Source: a virus
Virus record (IMG/VR): IMGVR_UViG_3300028025_003403
Coordinates: 1-28,501 of that record
DNA: 28,501 bases
Reading direction: 5' to 3' (one strand)
In this document: one piece after another, positions 12,147-27,867 of the stretch
How positions within the stretch are numbered: the first letter of the stretch is position 1
Layout of the letters: each line of letters opens with the position of its first letter
Program-made: the position numbers and the translations under genes
The notes under the pieces: model-generated
What the model saw: only the letters and a program-made list of their open reading frames with translations
Database searches by the model: none
Told to the model about the DNA's origin: nothing

Positions 12147-12731
12147 ATGAGCATAAAAGTAAGCATACCTGCTGACTATTCTTCGATTAGTGTCAAGCAA
12201 TACGTTGACTATCACAACGCGAAAAGCGACATCGACAAGTTGGTTAGTATTAGTAACCTACTGAAAGAACAGGCGGAACAGATACCCTTCCAACACTTGC
12301 CGACTTTAGTCCAAGCATTCGAAGGAACGTTGTTGAATGAGAGCGCGAAGTTCTTTGAGACAATCACGATCAAAGACAAAGACTTTGGTTTCATTCCAGA
12401 CCTTTACTCAATCAGTATGGGTGAGTACGCGGACATCTCAACGTGGGCTTCCGACGTGAGCGCGAATATGGTCAAGATAATGGGAACGCTATACCGACCT
12501 ATTGACAAACGCGTTGGAACAAAGTACACAATCATTCCACACAGCAAACAAAACAGAGAGTTAGTTGAAGGGTACGTTGAGCAGATGACGCTCGAACAAT
12601 TCAACGGTGCGATGCTTTTTTTTTCGACTTTGCTCAACGAACTAAGCAACACTTCGCTAGATTATTTGGAGAACGAGGTGAAGAAGTTGACGGAGGAGTT
12701 GACAACGCAATTGAAGACAGAGACAACCTAA
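12147..12731 (+). CDS. Tail assembly chaperone, short (unshifted) product
   Basis: This is a 194-residue protein. The pattern GFIPDLYSISMGEYADIS, followed by a MGTLYRPIDKRVG segment, recalls the tail assembly chaperone (gpG-like) group of Bacteroidota phages. The C-terminal part read in this frame (after about residue 159) is polar and low-complexity (LEN...KKLTEELTTQLKTETT). The gene carries a T9 slippery run at 12616-12624. The gpG-type proteins bind the tape measure in the cytoplasm and help tail-tube assembly. An A-rich leader (AACAACAAAAAGAA) precedes the ATG. Confidence 0.7.
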   Translation: MSIKVSIPADYSSISVKQYVDYHNAKSDIDKLVSISNLLKEQAEQIPFQHLPTLVQAFEGTLLNESAKFFETITIKDKDFGFIPDLYSISMGEYADISTWASDVSANMVKIMGTLYRPIDKRVGTKYTIIPHSKQNRELVEGYVEQMTLEQFNGAMLFFSTLLNELSNTSLDYLENEVKKLTEELTTQLKTETT

Positions 12732-12907
12732 ACCAAGTGTTGGGACGCTACGGTTGGTATCACTTGTTTATGGAAGCCTGTGGACGCGATATAACAAAAC
12801 TTGACGCAATTACGGAAAAAAGCGCGTGGGAAATATTTACATTTATGACTTACCTAATAGACTACAATTATGTCGAACGTACAAAGCTACAACGCTCTTA
12901 TCGATAG
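12147..12907 (+). CDS. Tail assembly chaperone, long -1 frameshift product
   Basis: In the -1 frame the sequence is open from the T9 run to a TAG at 12905-12907, although no start codon with a gene-like context exists there. A -1 shift on T-TTT-TTT (12617-12623) gives 159 residues of the zero frame plus 94 from the -1 frame, 253 in all. The extension ends in a well-folded-looking segment: RDNLNQVLGRYGWYHLFMEA, then KSAWEIFTFMTYLIDYN. It mirrors the lambda gpG/gpGT pair, in which the longer form recruits tail-tube subunits. The last 38 bases overlap the start of the next gene. Predicted, not demonstrated. Confidence 0.75.
12617..12623 (+). promoter_or_regulatory. -1 ribosomal frameshift slippery heptamer T-TTT-TTT
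   Basis: It lies within a run of nine T's (12616-12624), in phase with the chaperone frame (TTT at 12618-12620 and 12621-12623). A small stem, TTGCT (12630-12634) with AGCAA (12645-12649), starts 6 bases downstream, a normal spacer. Its loop CGAA (12638-12641) could pair with TTCG (12653-12656), a weak pseudoknot. Confidence 0.7.
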
Positions 12908-15335
12908 GTTCAAAGCATTTGCCTCTGGACACTTTATATTAAAGAGATTCTCTCACGGACAGATTGAGGTTTCTGACCTTGAAAAGTTTGGTGAATATCC
13001 ATTCATGCACGTCATTCCTTCCAACGTGACTTACTCGCAGGGAATGAAGACTTTCAGTTTTCAGATTGTTCTTGCTGACTTACCACGCGACAAAGAAGAC
13101 AAGAGCGAATATCAGCGCGAGGTTCTTTCTGACCTTCAAAGAATAGCTGAAGATTTGATTGCTGAGATTACGAACCACCGCGTTTTGTTCGGTGACTTAA
13201 TCACAGTTCAAAACGTTTCGTTAGAGCCATTCCTTGAAGAGTTTCAACACACTTTGACAGGTTGGACGATTAGTCTTGATTTGCTCGTTCCTTACTATTG
13301 GGACGCTTGTTCTATTCCTGCGGAGTGGAACGATATGTTTGAAAGTAGCACAGGTGGCACAGGATCAATTTTGACGTTCATTGACAGCATCACACGCGAC
13401 GAGAATGGGAACGTTTCGTTAGTGAATGACGAAGCCGAGCCTGCTCCGAATTACTACTATGGAACGAATGACGAAGGGGTGCGCGGTTGGTACTTGTTGA
13501 CTGACGAAATAGGTTTGACGTGCGAAACGATTGGCGATTGTCAAACGATAATAGACATCGAAGCAGCAATTGACGACTTGCAAGAAGAAATACTTTTGAA
13601 GGCGAACACAGCCGATATAAGCGCGGTTGGTTTCTCGAATGATTACAACGATTTAGACAACAAGCCAACCATTCCCGCAGCGCAAGTCAATTCAGACTGG
13701 AACGCGACAAGTGGAGTGGCTGAAATTCTTAATAAACCTTCGCTACCTGCAACGGTTGGAGATATGCTTAAAAGCGTTTACGACACAGACGTTGACGGAG
13801 TAGTTGACAGCGCGGAACGCATCCAGATAGTAGTTAGAAATTCAACAGGAAGCACACTAACAAAAGGACAAATAGTTTATTTAAGTGGCGCAACGGGCAA
13901 CCGTCCAAACGCGGTTCTTGCACAGGCAAACACCGAAGCGACATCGAGTAAGACTATCGGAATGGTCATTGCAAACATAGCCAACAACGCAGACGGACAG
14001 GTTGCTGTTAATGGAACGTTACACGACCTCGACACGTCAGCATTTACAGCGGGCGACACGCTTTGGCTGAGTGCAACAACGGCGGGTGGTATGGTAGCGA
14101 ACACACCGCCCATTGAACCAAACCACGCTGTGTTTATTGGTTACGTTGCACGTTCGCACCCGAATTTAGGACGCATCGTTTTAGCCATTCAAAACGGCTA
14201 CGAATTAGACGAACTTCACGGGGTGTTAATTACCACACCTGCGAACAACGAGGTGTTAACTTATGAAAGTTCAACAAGCCTTTGGAAGAACAAGACGGTT
14301 GCAACGGCACTCGGTTACACTCCAGTTCCTTCAACGCGCAGCCTAACAATCAACGGCACAACGCAAGACTTATCAGCAGATAGAACATTCACGATAGCCA
14401 CAGGTTTAACCGTTGGCACTACACCAATCACAAGCGGAACGGTAGGCAGAGTGTTGTTCGAAGGGACGGGCAATGTTTTACAAGAGAGTGCTAATTTGGC
14501 TTGGAACAACACAACACAAGCTTTAATTGTTGTTGGTAAACTTGGAATTAATAATGTTTCGCCACTTCAAACTTTAGATATGATTGGTGGTTTTAGAACT
14601 TCGTTAAGTGCAGGAAATGCGGGTGCAGTTGTGATGGACCAATTAGGAACAAGTAGTGCTGGTAGAATTTATGCGTATAATGGAAGTGGTGCAAGTTTAA
14701 ATATTTTATTAACTGCAAATGGTTTCTCTTGGTTGAATGGCGGAAACTTCGCAATCGGCACAACAACAGACGCAGGGTACAAGCTCGATGTGAATGGAAC
14801 GGCTCGATTAAATGGATTGAGTTCTATCAATGGAGCAGGGGTGGCGAATACTGCTTTGGCTGTTTACGGAAATGGAAACGGAGGCGGTAACTACTTATTT
14901 AGAATGTACGATGCAAGTGCTGTTGAAAGATTCTATTTAACTGCAAGTGGTAACTTTAGATTGAATGGTGCTACCGATACATCTACAACAGGCACAGACG
15001 AAAAGTGGAGAATGGTATTAAACTTCGCACCAACAAGTGGAACTCGTGAACACAATGGAATATATCTAACTCAAACAATAAACCAAACGGGCGGTGCAAA
15101 TGGAATAAGTAGAGGTTTACTTATACAGCCAACACTTACGGCAGCAGCGGATTATAGAGCGATTGAAGTAACGGCAGGAACAACTGTTTTAGCAGCTTCA
15201 GTAACAGCGAGAGCATCGTTAAGAATACCAAGCGGAACAGCACCTACTTCACCTGTTAACGGAGACATTTGGTTTGATGGAACTAACTTAAATGTTAGAA
15301 TCGCAGGAGTAACAAGAACAATAGTAGTACTTTAA
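12870..15335 (+). CDS. Tail-completion-like domain fused to a tail fibre (821 aa)
   Basis: Residues 1-155 look like a tail-terminator or tail-completion protein (SYNALIDRFKAFASGHFILK, with beta strands such as MKTFSFQIVLADLP and GWTISLDLLVP). From about 160 the protein becomes a repetitive beta-rich fibre: two NKP repeats (NDLDNKPTIP at about 260; AEILNKPSLP at about 285) with SDWNATSGVA, the LGYTP motif (481-485), then Gly/Asn/Thr-rich strands such as GYKLDVNGTARLNG. The end is a hydrophobic C-terminus of the PVNGDIWFDGTNLNVRIAGV type found at fibre tips of Bacteroidota phages. It is expected to attach virions to the host surface. The two parts are usually separate genes. The distal third (about 14510 to 15335) has visibly different codon choice, which suggests exchange of host-range modules. 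Confidence 0.75.
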   Translation: MSNVQSYNALIDRFKAFASGHFILKRFSHGQIEVSDLEKFGEYPFMHVIPSNVTYSQGMKTFSFQIVLADLPRDKEDKSEYQREVLSDLQRIAEDLIAEITNHRVLFGDLITVQNVSLEPFLEEFQHTLTGWTISLDLLVPYYWDACSIPAEWNDMFESSTGGTGSILTFIDSITRDENGNVSLVNDEAEPAPNYYYGTNDEGVRGWYLLTDEIGLTCETIGDCQTIIDIEAAIDDLQEEILLKANTADISAVGFSNDYNDLDNKPTIPAAQVNSDWNATSGVAEILNKPSLPATVGDMLKSVYDTDVDGVVDSAERIQIVVRNSTGSTLTKGQIVYLSGATGNRPNAVLAQANTEATSSKTIGMVIANIANNADGQVAVNGTLHDLDTSAFTAGDTLWLSATTAGGMVANTPPIEPNHAVFIGYVARSHPNLGRIVLAIQNGYELDELHGVLITTPANNEVLTYESSTSLWKNKTVATALGYTPVPSTRSLTINGTTQDLSADRTFTIATGLTVGTTPITSGTVGRVLFEGTGNVLQESANLAWNNTTQALIVVGKLGINNVSPLQTLDMIGGFRTSLSAGNAGAVVMDQLGTSSAGRIYAYNGSGASLNILLTANGFSWLNGGNFAIGTTTDAGYKLDVNGTARLNGLSSINGAGVANTALAVYGNGNGGGNYLFRMYDASAVERFYLTASGNFRLNGATDTSTTGTDEKWRMVLNFAPTSGTREHNGIYLTQTINQTGGANGISRGLLIQPTLTAAADYRAIEVTAGTTVLAASVTARASLRIPSGTAPTSPVNGDIWFDGTNLNVRIAGVTRTIVVL

Positions 15336-20440: not shown

Positions 20441-22393
20441 ATGGCGAATACAATTGACTTTAATGTAAACACAAACGCGGTTACCGTCCTCAATCAAACG
20501 GCAACAGCGGCAGACAATACAGCGCAAGGGTTTAGTTCAGCGAAGGCGGAGTTACGCGCGTTGAATCAGCAGTTATTGCAAATGGATTCTTCAAGTGAGG
20601 AATTTAAGAAAGCGTCCGCTCGTGCTGCTGAATTGAAAGACAACATAAGCGACTTATCAGCAGAGATTAACGCAAATGCAGGTAATGCTTTCGAAGGTCT
20701 TTCGAACAACGTTTCTTTGTTTGGTTCTCGATTGATGGATTTAGATTTGCGCGGAGCAGGACAAGCGTTAACCGCAATGGGTGGCGCAGTTGGTCGCATT
20801 GATTTTAAGACGTTAAAAAATGAAGTTGGTGGTCTTGTTCAAGGTTTAGGAAATCTTGGAAAAGCGGTACTTTCTAACCCATTCTTTTTAGCAGCAGGAG
20901 CGTTAACCGCAATGATTGTTTACTATAAAGAGATAAATGATTTACTTACTGGAACTGCTGAAAAAGTTAAAAATCTTGAAGAAGCAAACGTTGTTTTAGA
21001 AAAGCAAAATTTAGCTCTTGACGCGCAAATCAACAAACAAAAAACGTTATACGGAGAAAGTTTTAGAACTCTTGAACTTGAAAAAGAAAAGGCGCAAAAC
21101 AATGTAAAGGTTGCGGAAAACGAATTAGCCATTGCAAAAACAACAGGCGACATTAACACTATTCGCGAAAAGGAAAATCAGTTAATCGAGATGCGTAACT
21201 TATTAAGCAATATAACTGCTAAAGGTGAAGCGGACAGAATTAAAGGGATTGAAAAAGCAAAAGAATTAACCATTGAAGGTTATAAAGAAGAGGCAGATAG
21301 AAAAAAAGCAATAGCCGAATTTGAAGATTTAAGAGCGCAGCAACTTGCTGTTATTGATGAAAAACAAAGAGTATTGCAATCCAACATTGACAAGGAAAAC
21401 TTGATAATGGCGGAGAAACAATATACAACTGAACGCGCGAATTTTGTTCAGAAAGACATTGAAACTAAAAAAGTTTTAGTTCAAACAGATAGACAAAAAC
21501 AACTTCAAGCAGAGTTGAATCAGTTAATAGCAGATAAAGAAATTATTAAAAATACAAAAGTTGCTATTGCTACAGGTACAACAGTAAACGAATTAAAGGC
21601 GAAAGAATTAGCACTTCAAAAGGAATTAAACAAAGAAGGTAAAACAGCCGAACAACTTCAGAAAGAAGCCGACGACGCAGAAATGGCACGTCGTAAAAAG
21701 TTGAACGACGAAATGATGGCTGAGGACGATCGAATAAGACGTATTTCGGCTGAAGATTATTTTGATGCACAAAGAGCATTATCAGATAAGAAGGTTGCTA
21801 CCGAAATGCAGATTCACGCGAACCTTACTTCTTTACGCGCTCAACAATCTCAACAAGAAATTGAAGAATTAAGACAAGCAGAAGACGCAAAAGCACAACT
21901 CCGCGTCGACGCAATGAGAACTTCATTGTCTATTATTAGCGACTTGGCTCAAGCGTTTGCAGGAGATAGCGAAAGACAACAAAGAAAAGCCTTTCAAATA
22001 CAAAAGGGAGTGAGTATTGCAACGGCTACAATAGACACATATTTAGCAGCACAGGGAGCTTTTCGTTCTCAAATGGCTATCAGTACACCAGACGCACCTG
22101 TTCGCGCAGCGGTAGCAGCAGGTATCGCAATTGCTCAAGGTCTTGCGCGTGTGGCTGTAATTAGCAAACAACAATTCAATGGCGGTGGTGGAACAAGCGG
22201 AGCAAATAGTTCAAGTGGTAACGTTCCACAAGCAGGCGGAATGAACGCACCTTCACCTGCCAACTTCGCGTTCTTGGGCAACCAACCCAACCAACAACAA
22301 CCACCGCTTCAAGCGTACGTCGTGAGCGGTCAAGTGTCAAGCAATTTAGAGGCTCAACAATTAATACAAAATCAATCAAGATTAGGAGGATAA
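20441..22393 (+). CDS. Tape measure protein
   Basis: This is a 650-residue protein. The N-terminal half starts with a helical QLLQMDSSSEEFKKASARAA region, a pattern common in Bacteroidota tape measures. A hydrophobic stretch (about 147-163, NPFFLAAGALTAMIVYY) could be the membrane-active part. Residues about 175-480 are a long coiled coil rich in K/E/Q. At 520-580 a hydrophobic helical segment (GVSIATATIDTYLAAQGAFR) precedes a Gly/Ser/Asn/Pro-rich linker and a C-terminal QAYVVSGQVSSNLEAQQLI tail. Tape measures set tail length: 650 residues would span roughly 100 nm at about 0.15 nm per residue, as for a siphovirus. Unlike the usual order, it lies after the tail-tip genes. Confidence 0.8.
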   Translation: MANTIDFNVNTNAVTVLNQTATAADNTAQGFSSAKAELRALNQQLLQMDSSSEEFKKASARAAELKDNISDLSAEINANAGNAFEGLSNNVSLFGSRLMDLDLRGAGQALTAMGGAVGRIDFKTLKNEVGGLVQGLGNLGKAVLSNPFFLAAGALTAMIVYYKEINDLLTGTAEKVKNLEEANVVLEKQNLALDAQINKQKTLYGESFRTLELEKEKAQNNVKVAENELAIAKTTGDINTIREKENQLIEMRNLLSNITAKGEADRIKGIEKAKELTIEGYKEEADRKKAIAEFEDLRAQQLAVIDEKQRVLQSNIDKENLIMAEKQYTTERANFVQKDIETKKVLVQTDRQKQLQAELNQLIADKEIIKNTKVAIATGTTVNELKAKELALQKELNKEGKTAEQLQKEADDAEMARRKKLNDEMMAEDDRIRRISAEDYFDAQRALSDKKVATEMQIHANLTSLRAQQSQQEIEELRQAEDAKAQLRVDAMRTSLSIISDLAQAFAGDSERQQRKAFQIQKGVSIATATIDTYLAAQGAFRSQMAISTPDAPVRAAVAAGIAIAQGLARVAVISKQQFNGGGGTSGANSSSGNVPQAGGMNAPSPANFAFLGNQPNQQQPPLQAYVVSGQVSSNLEAQQLIQNQSRLGG

Positions 22394-22397
22394 AACA

Positions 22398-23309
22398 ATG
22401 AAAAAAATTAAAGTAATCGAATACGGAATAGACGAAGGTGGTCTATTAGGAGTATACGCTATCAGCGTAGTAGAACAACCTGCAATCGGTGTCGACTTCG
22501 TCGCGTTAAGCGAACAACACAACGTGAAGTTCAAAGAAGATTTTAGAGGTCTGTTGTATGGAGCGTTATTGATTCCCGACCAACTGATTTACCGACGCAA
22601 CGACGAAACGAACGAGGAATACTACGTTAAGTATTCGAAGGACACAATCAGAGCAATTGCTTACAACTATTTGAAACAAGCCAACCAAAACAACGCAACG
22701 GTTGAACACGCGAAAGTTGTTGACGGAGTGTCTTTGGTTGAAACGTGGATAATTGAAGGAGAGAACGACAAGTCGAAGAACTTCGGGTTTGACCTTCCAG
22801 AAGGAACGTGGTTTGGTTGTATGAAAGTGGAGAATGAAGAAGTAAAGAAGCAAATACAAAACAAAGAGGTTCTTGGCTTTTCTATCGAAGGAAACTTCAT
22901 CGCAGAGAAAGAAATGTATTTAAGTAAGCACGAAGAATTTGCAGCCATTCTTGCAGAGATTGAACAATTGTTGACGTTAGCCACGCAAGAAGAAATTGAA
23001 GCGCGTTACGACGATTATATGAGCGCGGTGAATATGACCTATTCAGAACTAAAAGCGTGGTCAGAAACGGAGTGTTCAACTTTGGCTTCACTTGATCGTT
23101 CACCAATCGAAAGAAACCTTGAACTACTTCAAACCAACAAAGCAGATTGGACTGAAAAGCACTACGAAGATGCGGGAAAGACAATTGCCTTCATAAATAG
23201 AATGCGCGAAAATCAAGCGGGTGATATTTTAGAAGACAGCAATGGAAACGTTTGCGGAAGTAAGCGTACAATTTCTCTTTTGAATTGGGCATACAATCCG
23301 AATAAGTAA
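22398..23309 (+). CDS. Prohead maturation serine protease (XkdF-like) with extra C-terminal domain
   Basis: This is a 303-residue protein. The N-terminal module IEYGIDEGGLLGVYAISVVE and the core (GLLYGALLIPDQLIYRR, TVEHAKVVDG with candidate catalytic H104, EVLGFSIEGNF with candidate nucleophile S162) match XkdF-like prohead proteases of the S78/S14-related group. These cut scaffold and capsid precursors during head maturation. Residues 208-303 are an additional module (MTYSELKAWSETECSTLASL, KTIAFINRMRENQAG, then CGSKRTISLLNWAYNP) recurring at the ends of phage proteins. Scaffold and capsid genes follow. It has an SD-like AGGAGG (22384-22389) before the ATG, rare in this window. Confidence 0.8.
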   Translation: MKKIKVIEYGIDEGGLLGVYAISVVEQPAIGVDFVALSEQHNVKFKEDFRGLLYGALLIPDQLIYRRNDETNEEYYVKYSKDTIRAIAYNYLKQANQNNATVEHAKVVDGVSLVETWIIEGENDKSKNFGFDLPEGTWFGCMKVENEEVKKQIQNKEVLGFSIEGNFIAEKEMYLSKHEEFAAILAEIEQLLTLATQEEIEARYDDYMSAVNMTYSELKAWSETECSTLASLDRSPIERNLELLQTNKADWTEKHYEDAGKTIAFINRMRENQAGDILEDSNGNVCGSKRTISLLNWAYNPNK

Positions 23310-26163: not shown

Positions 26164-27867
26164 ATGAGCAACATTCAAGCAATAAACTTATCGGCTTATC
26201 AACCTGTTGAAGCGGTTGAAAAAGAAAACAGAAGCGGTTGGATTGATTATGGAAATAACAATCTTTTCCCTCAACATCTCATAAACCTTTACCAAAACTC
26301 ACCAATACACAACGCGTTGGTGAACTCAATCTCTTATATGATTGAGGGACAAGGTACGGGAACAATTCTCGACAATGCGTTGCAAGGTATTGCCTTCGAT
26401 TTAAAGTTACAAGGCGCATTTGTTGCTGAAGTAATTTGGTCAATGGACTTCACTCGCGTTGTACAAATAAACCACTTGCCTTTCGAGAATTGCAGACTTG
26501 CATACGACAAAGAAGAAGACGATATTACAGGAATTTTCTATTCGAAAGATTGGGCAAATACAAGAAGCAAAAGAGGTAAGCCAGAGTTCATTCCTGCGTT
26601 CAATCCTTCAATTGCACAAGAACAACCAAGACAAGTTATTTACGCTCACGGAATGTCAGCAGGAAGTGTTTACTATCCAAAGCCTGACTATTTCGGAGCG
26701 TTGAATTACGTTGAGTTGAGTTACCAAATGGGACTTTACCACGTCAACAACATCTTGAATGGTTTATTTCCTTCATTCATCATTAACTTCTTGAATGGAA
26801 TACCGCAAAAAGAAGAACGTGAAGCTATTCGTCGTGAATGGGAAACACGTTTGAGCGGTGCAAGTAACGCGGGTAAGTTCTTAATGACCTTCAACGAAGA
26901 TCCTGCACGCGCTCCACAAATCGAAGCATTTCCTTTGTCGGACGCAGACAAGCAATATCAGTTTTTATCTGAAGAAACAGCGAAACAAATCATGGTCGGA
27001 CACCGCGTTGTTTCACCATTGATTCACGGCATACGCGACACAACAGGTTTCGGAAGCAATAAGGACGAAATGTTGGTAGGTTTGGAGATATTCAACAACC
27101 AAGTTATTAAGCCATATCAAAGAATCATTGAAAGAGTTTTTACTCCGATTTTAGGAGAGATAAATATCGAAATGAACTCGCCATTCGACGAAGAAGTTGT
27201 AGTTGTTGAACCAACGGTGCAAACTGCTGAATTAAAAAAAAAAGTAGTTGCGGATGCTGAGAATGATTTCAGCGACGAACAAGGCAAAGAGTGGATTGAT
27301 GTACTAAAAGAAAAAGCGGAATACATCGATTTAGACGAATGGCAGTTGGTAAGTGAAGAAGATGTTACCGACCCAGACAACGAAATGAACTACACAAGCG
27401 AGTTCTTTGCAAAGCGTAACAAGATGCCGACAATGAGCGACGCTCAAGGTGAGAAAGAATCTAAGTGGGGAGATAAAGGACTTTATAAATTACGCTATGC
27501 CTATTCACAAAACATAAGCGAAAATAGTCGTGAGTTCTGCAAAGAAATGGTTCAAATGTCGCAGTTAGGCGCAATCTTTCGTTATGAAGATATTGAAGCA
27601 ATGAGCAAGGAAGGAGTGAATGGAAGTTTTGCACCGCAAGGACAAAATACTTATAGTTTGTTCCGCTATGTCGGGGGGTGCTTCTGCCATCATTTTTGGA
27701 AAAGATTAATTTATATCCGCAAACGCGATTCAAAAGGACGCATACTTCCAAACGACGGATTGAACAACGATAAGCGTGTTGGTAATAACCCATATGTTCC
27801 ACAAAAAGGCATCGAAGGAACAGCACCAATCAACAGACCAGACAGAGGTTCTTTAAAATACCCTTAA
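26164..27867 (+). CDS. Portal protein with C-terminal extension (567 aa)
   Basis: Residues 1-345 are a portal body: WIDYGNNNLFPQHLINLYQN, the clip/stem-like region and YQFLSEETAKQIMVGHRVVS. Residues 346-400 form a charged linker. Residues about 410-520 are an unusual extra domain (FFAKRNKMPT, WGDKGLYKLRYAYS, SREFCKEMVQMSQLGAIFR, GGCFCHHFWKR at about 505-512) with conserved-looking Cys/His that may bind metal. The portal forms the DNA gate at one capsid vertex and receives terminase. A run of ten A's at 27234-27243 in the linker can allow slippage; a -1 shift would stop at 27258-27260. Portal normally neighbours terL; here they are about 24 kb apart within the window, on opposite strands. Confidence 0.8.
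   Translation: MSNIQAINLSAYQPVEAVEKENRSGWIDYGNNNLFPQHLINLYQNSPIHNALVNSISYMIEGQGTGTILDNALQGIAFDLKLQGAFVAEVIWSMDFTRVVQINHLPFENCRLAYDKEEDDITGIFYSKDWANTRSKRGKPEFIPAFNPSIAQEQPRQVIYAHGMSAGSVYYPKPDYFGALNYVELSYQMGLYHVNNILNGLFPSFIINFLNGIPQKEEREAIRREWETRLSGASNAGKFLMTFNEDPARAPQIEAFPLSDADKQYQFLSEETAKQIMVGHRVVSPLIHGIRDTTGFGSNKDEMLVGLEIFNNQVIKPYQRIIERVFTPILGEINIEMNSPFDEEVVVVEPTVQTAELKKKVVADAENDFSDEQGKEWIDVLKEKAEYIDLDEWQLVSEEDVTDPDNEMNYTSEFFAKRNKMPTMSDAQGEKESKWGDKGLYKLRYAYSQNISENSREFCKEMVQMSQLGAIFRYEDIEAMSKEGVNGSFAPQGQNTYSLFRYVGGCFCHHFWKRLIYIRKRDSKGRILPNDGLNNDKRVGNNPYVPQKGIEGTAPINRPDRGSLKYP

Follow-up and report, generated by a model that had tools for sequence, protein, structure and literature searches.

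Can one gene of a tailed phage encode two products that differ in their C-terminal parts, and which machine, the ribosome or RNA polymerase, would make the transition between the two frames? The question is raised by a locus in the IMG/VR virus record IMGVR_UViG_3300028025_003403, whose 28,501 bases were analyzed here and are called the window. In this locus, a stretch of nine T's lies within a phage gene, and from there the -1 frame continues without a stop far beyond the stop codon of the gene (Table 1). The combination of two frames and a T9 run in one gene is real. The 0 frame, the run and the -1 frame up to its TAG lie exactly where the sequence-only reading had placed them, and the two further claims of that reading about the local layout hold as well: a T_TTT_TTT heptamer (12617-12623) is in phase with the 0 frame, and the ATG of the next gene lies inside the end of the extension. 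The codons spanning the run (157-160) are CTT TTT TTT TCG, and the window contains no other T run of eight or more.

Table 1. Positions of the discussed features, given in window coordinates unless another sequence is named.
Feature	Position	Strand	Remarks
0-frame gene	12147..12731	+	ATG at 12147, stop at 12729-12731; 194 aa; putative gpG-like product
T9 run, C-TTTTTTTTT-C	12616..12624	+	candidate slippage run; invariant in the near family
-1-frame extension	12623..12907	+	94 codons and TAG at 12905-12907; C-terminal part of the putative gpGT-like fusion
Dual-coded stretch	12624..12731	+	codes for the 35-aa C-terminal tail of the 0-frame product and for the beginning of the extension
TAA shutting the +1 frame	12643..12645	+	six codons past the run
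Overlap of extension end and next-gene start	12870..12907	+	38 bases
Next gene	12870-15335	+	821 aa; ATG at 12870
Weak tape-measure match	20441-22393		about 7.7 kb from the chaperone-like gene
XkdF-type protease	22398-23309		same assembly block
Portal gene	26164-27867	+	same assembly block
A10 run in portal gene	27234-27243	+	TTA AAA AAA AAA GTA
P12024L gp41	L160 12444-12695 (JQ823123 24389-24640)		end of the gp40 frameshift extension, annotated as a gene of its own
Flavobacterium phage 6H gp10	L549 10352-10927	-	fold-level relative by model search

Two coding frames kept across homologous phages

Homologues were collected from IMG/VR, from the cultured Nonlabens phages P12024L and P12024S, and from Flavobacteriia metagenome-assembled genomes (MAGs); all evidence is comparative, and the contigs are environmental. 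About 300 distinct homologous proteins, down to approximately 25% identity, keep both frames and the run. When viral contigs were scanned with either half, the other half adjoined it in the -1 phase at 158 of 158 near loci, and the C-T9-C sequence was the same throughout. Since the near family dominates such counts, they were clustered by identity in the analyses of the wider family.

Nucleotide diversity among 63 distinct ungapped near-family sequences changes its phase along the locus: (i) before the run, diversity at the three 0-frame codon positions is 0.11, 0.08 and 0.39, that is, the third position varies, (ii) within the T run, diversity is zero, (iii) in the dual-coded overlap, all positions are damped (0.06, 0.07 and 0.13, mean 0.09), (iv) after the 0-frame stop, the values for the -1 frame are 0.07, 0.03 and 0.26, the third position being again the variable one, and (v) beyond the stretch coded in the -1 frame only, diversity tracks the frame of the next gene. 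As the constraint passes from the 0 to the -1 frame once the 0-frame stop is reached, the extension is under coding selection and has the signature expected of translation. Of these 63 sequences, 62 have an open -1 frame, and the +1 frame is closed in all 63; across the wider family, the +1 frame shuts after a median of two codons. In the remaining near sequence, a stop interrupts the -1 frame.

The same run and -1 frame were found in distant homologues (25-56% identity), and searches starting from the P12024L protein and from alignments recovered several hundred further contigs. At every homologous site having enough sequence the run is kept. The expectation that homologues should share both the -1 frame and the slippery site is thus borne out in the near and far families: no homologue lacking the run was found, and breaks in the -1 frame are confined to two run-length variants and the interrupted sequence. 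The consensus of the extension is LxFRxR...YxELFG...FxxKWGWYxSIYxLAxGDxxRFxxITxL...CLxxLxFEKEK, and the 0-frame parts have the motifs YGFIPNLD..S.GEY.DLD and VLYRPI in common.

Phages P12024L and P12024S, the sole sequence relatives in the phage collection searched, carry a homologous gp40-gp41 pair at about 30% identity to the window's proteins. The run of P12024L is a T9 in the same codon phase as that of the window, and its extension shares the GWY core with the window's extension. In contrast to this likeness, the annotation treats gp40 and gp41 as hypothetical genes with no connection, although gp41 corresponds to the tail of the extension. The remark of the sequence-only reading that the extension would be lost in a standard annotation therefore describes what has happened in a cultured phage. 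The pair is located after the terminase in P12024L, where the tape-measure match is at gp50; this phage is grown in the laboratory on Persicivirga sp. IMCC12024.

The MAG contigs with a homologue are labelled Flavobacterium, Winogradskyella and Epsilonproteobacteria, and no further copy was found in 396 genomes from the order of the Flavobacterium MAG. The contig from the MAG labelled Epsilonproteobacteria (L306) holds a gene 99% identical to that of an IMG/VR contig (L307); it is probably a mis-binned phage contig, and otherwise its host lies outside Bacteroidota. In another set of contigs (L188-L222), the 0-frame tail past the run has about 80-85 aa and overlaps nearly all of the extension, the two stops being 23-38 bases apart; here, the two products would differ in C-termini of near-equal length encoded by one DNA stretch.

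Length and phase of the T run

The distinct 0-frame proteins number 294 and form 126 clusters at 90% identity; across them, the run is 9, 10, 11 or 12 bases long and never 7 or 8. Runs of nine and of ten each occur in codon phases 0, 1 and 2, and an in-phase copy of T_TTT_TTT is present at every homologous site. We scored the T's to the left and to the right of this heptamer separately. Most lineages have one flank T per side. In one clade (L306, L320-L324 and L422), the right flank T is lost and the left flank holds two (TTT TTT TTT CNN); in L365 and L417, the left one is lost and the right flank holds two or three, the configurations being GGT TTT TTT TTG and AGT TTT TTT TTT CGT. Shuffling of the flanks among 48 clusters at 60% identity produced on average 4.0 runs shorter than nine, and only 0.015% of the shuffles left no such run. 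On a tree of 76 representatives, we counted 14 flank changes with repeated gains, and all losses are paired with gains on the opposite side; as the deep branches of the tree are poorly resolved, only about three of the flank losses are independent.

The residue before the FF pair is V, L, I, F, G or S, and the residue after it is Y, W, S, L, F or C; given such variety around the pair, no single amino acid dictates the flank T's. Replacement of the eighth T by C would leave both proteins unchanged in 93 of the 126 clusters, where the -1 frame reads TTA or TTG, and it was never seen. TTC accounts for 23% of the other upstream phenylalanine codons, and the window's own genes use TTC 129 times versus 88 for TTT. 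Taken over the aligned sequences, this pattern indicates that selection keeps a minimum of nine T's, whatever the codon phase.

Two single contigs within a T10 clade have longer runs, T11 in L325 and T12 in L327. L325 has the extension in the normal frame, whereas in L327 the normal frame stops directly past the run. Either the longer runs are genuine, which a slipping polymerase could tolerate, or they are homopolymer errors.

Routes into the extension frame

Since at least nine T's are kept in any codon phase, slippage of the polymerase fits better than slippage of the ribosome, and we consider programmed transcriptional slippage on the run to be the most likely mechanism, a preference held with some reserve. 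The layout agrees with it, as the run lies in the overlap of two coding frames and has 9-12 T's. The presence of another conserved long run, the A10/A11 of the portal gene described below, also speaks in its favor. In bacteria, such slippage operates on runs of nine A or T (PMC5009743, PMC1088944), and some AT-rich bacteria may suppress it (PMC1088944). At title and abstract level, we found no earlier report that ties slippage to tail assembly, portal proteins or Bacteroidetes.

According to the proposed mechanism, RNA polymerase would slip on the T9 (U9 in the mRNA), and ordinary translation of the fraction of mRNAs with one extra U, or with four, would enter the extension. Messages short of one U, or with two extra, would be read in the +1 frame up to its early TAA. 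Two products with 159 shared N-terminal residues would result, a common gpG-like protein of 194 aa and a rarer gpGT-like protein of 253 aa. The junction peptide AMLFF-FDFAQR would be identical for a -1 ribosomal shift and for the insertion of one U, and therefore it cannot separate the mechanisms. The peptides predicted for other changes are AMLFFFFDFAQR for four inserted U's, AMLFFFSTLL for three, and the truncated AMLFFRLCSTN for the loss of one U. An easy test at the RNA level is offered by the polymerase-slippage reading. Slippage of the RNA, the ratio of the products and the chaperone role discussed below are what we infer from these patterns, and are not read from the sequence.

The sequence-only reading had assumed that the transition is made by the ribosome, at the heptamer and with the help of a stem that begins six bases downstream. 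A stimulatory structure downstream of -1 ribosomal sites is common but not obligatory. No downstream fold signal was detected in the 76 representatives, in which the mean z was about zero in every 60-base downstream window, and the 80-nt downstream fold of the window itself is unremarkable (z -1.31); the stem is therefore unsupported. From 45 bases before the run to 15 past its end, the representatives have slightly less structure (z +0.40, s.e. 0.12). A transcription terminator was rejected as an explanation of the run, because an upstream hairpin is absent and the stretch before the run is, if anything, less folded. Of the earlier proposal, the programmed -1 transition giving a gpG/gpGT-like pair thus stands, whereas the ribosomal heptamer with a stem is doubtful, because nine or more T's are retained and no stimulator was detected.

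Frameshifting by the ribosome at U_UUU_UUU, in the manner of lambda, though with a U run as the site and no structure to stimulate it, is nevertheless the alternative that survives best, and we regard it as quite possible, though less likely. A heptamer of the X_XXY_YYZ type is in phase at every site and gives the correct direction, the precedent among chaperones is ribosomal (PMC5009743), and a T at the Z position preserves identical re-pairing of tRNA-Phe. On this explanation, the extra T's would be kept by the two protein sequences, or longer U runs would raise ribosomal slippage; as runs of at least nine hold the heptamer in any phase, a ribosomal preference for long U runs could mimic the length rule; the small number of independent flank losses also weakens the case for the polymerase. 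Seven T's suffice for a ribosomal heptamer, yet runs of seven or eight are missing and flank losses are compensated; the constraint is not limited to the heptamer, while the flanking residues vary. Furthermore, the ribosomal site U_UUU_UUU is weak in E. coli, A_AAA_AAG being much stronger (PMC5009743). Ribosomal slippage and polymerase slippage may also both contribute.

Expression of the extension as a separate gene, by re-initiation or from an internal start and without any frameshift, is very unlikely. The annotation of gp41 in P12024L follows this model, as it begins at an internal ATG overlapping the gp40 stop, but the conserved -1 coding already begins at the run, before any conserved start codon is reached, and a start codon leaves the invariant presence of at least nine T's unexplained. 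Homopolymer errors of sequencing or assembly, or decay of the gene, can be dismissed almost entirely: homopolymers are error-prone and the single T11 and T12 contigs break the frame pattern, but the comparative data refute both ideas, as hundreds of independent contigs and two cultured phages have the same run and frames, and both frames are under coding selection.

Role of the products and comparison with known systems

It is plausible that the gene encodes a tail assembly chaperone pair of a Bacteroidota (Flavobacteriia-type) tailed phage, an assignment that rests on architecture and gene neighborhood. The comparative evidence points to a short and a frame-shifted longer product of one gene, and the chaperone role is the most likely one because that group is characterized by assembly genes with a frame-extended minor product. 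The gene sits in a virion-assembly block together with a protease, a portal gene and a weak tape-measure match.

Searches by similarity added little to this assignment. The 0-frame product matches phrog_32199, a PHROG of unknown function, and scans of both products gave no match in Pfam and no PHROG with a function. No PDB match was obtained at E <= 0.001, and a comparison with PDB structures by Foldseek and VIA-align yielded nothing credible, the hits being mostly to the C-terminal helix 148-194. The nearest viral structure models are uncharacterised, and named chaperones appear weakly (ctCpR1, E 0.075; Kitkat, E 0.87). The mean pLDDT of the AlphaFold2 models is 88.7 for the 0-frame protein and 68.6 for the extension. 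The description of the extension as well-folded-looking is therefore apt for its second half, which alone has confident helices, and not for the extension as a whole. A fold-level relative, gp10 of Flavobacterium phage 6H, has T6C near its end instead of T9, with a -1 stop directly behind; an unannotated extension-like frame follows downstream, out of reach of a simple -1 shift at T6C. For these reasons, 6H gp10 says little either way.

The portal gene of the window contains a second long homopolymer. A10 or A11 is retained in each of the 20 related records that include a portal; a broader scan, whose sequences may overlap with these records, yielded 73 distinct sequences, of which 72 have it. 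The run always consists of AAA codons, AAG making up 46% of the lysine codons in the window's genes, and third-position diversity is 0.10-0.45 in the portal's other invariant lysine codons, whereas the codons of the run do not vary. Stops follow within 0-1 codons in the +1 frame and within 3-11 codons in the -1 frame. By analogy with Thermus dnaX, slippage on this run could give a truncated portal of approximately 357-360 aa beside the 567-aa one. The portal of P12024L lacks the run, which is therefore a trait of a subgroup.

Tentatively, and with rather less confidence than the slippage on the T run itself, we suggest that a widespread lineage of Bacteroidota phages sets the stoichiometry of virion assembly by RNA-polymerase slippage, with T9 or longer runs lengthening a chaperone-like product and A10 or A11 shortening the portal in the window's subgroup. 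If so, the mRNAs would form a mixed population, and the polymerase would determine the proportions of the products. Frameshifting in tail chaperones is usually ascribed to the ribosome; a family whose signal resembles polymerase slippage would mean that the same kind of product pair is obtained via another machine, much as Thermus and E. coli differ for dnaX. Whichever machine is used, a conserved protein has been missed by gene finders in hundreds of environmental phages and two cultured ones, and the run length in such genomes should not be "corrected".

Among known systems, the gpG/gpGT pair of lambda is similar in that one gene in the virion-assembly region gives a common short product and a rarer -1-extended one. 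Lambda slips at the ribosomal heptamer G_GGA_AAG, whereas the window's family keeps a T run of at least nine; in addition, no sequence likeness between the window's proteins and a named chaperone family was detected, and the gene that follows is no recognised tape measure. The closest layout is that of mxiE in Shigella, where transcriptional slippage inserts a base at a U run and fuses two overlapping frames (PMC1088944): here too, a T run lies in the overlap of the frames, and one added U would lead to the longer product. The difference is that mxiE is a bacterial regulator gene with proven slippage, and the window's gene is a phage assembly gene in which slippage is proposed from comparison. 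In dnaX of Thermus thermophilus, slippage on an A9 run yields two products (PMC1088944), and a run of nine likewise sets the ratio of two products of one gene, but slippage shortens the product there and would lengthen it in the window's T9 gene. The A10 run in the portal gene of the window's phages is the closer parallel to Thermus dnaX.
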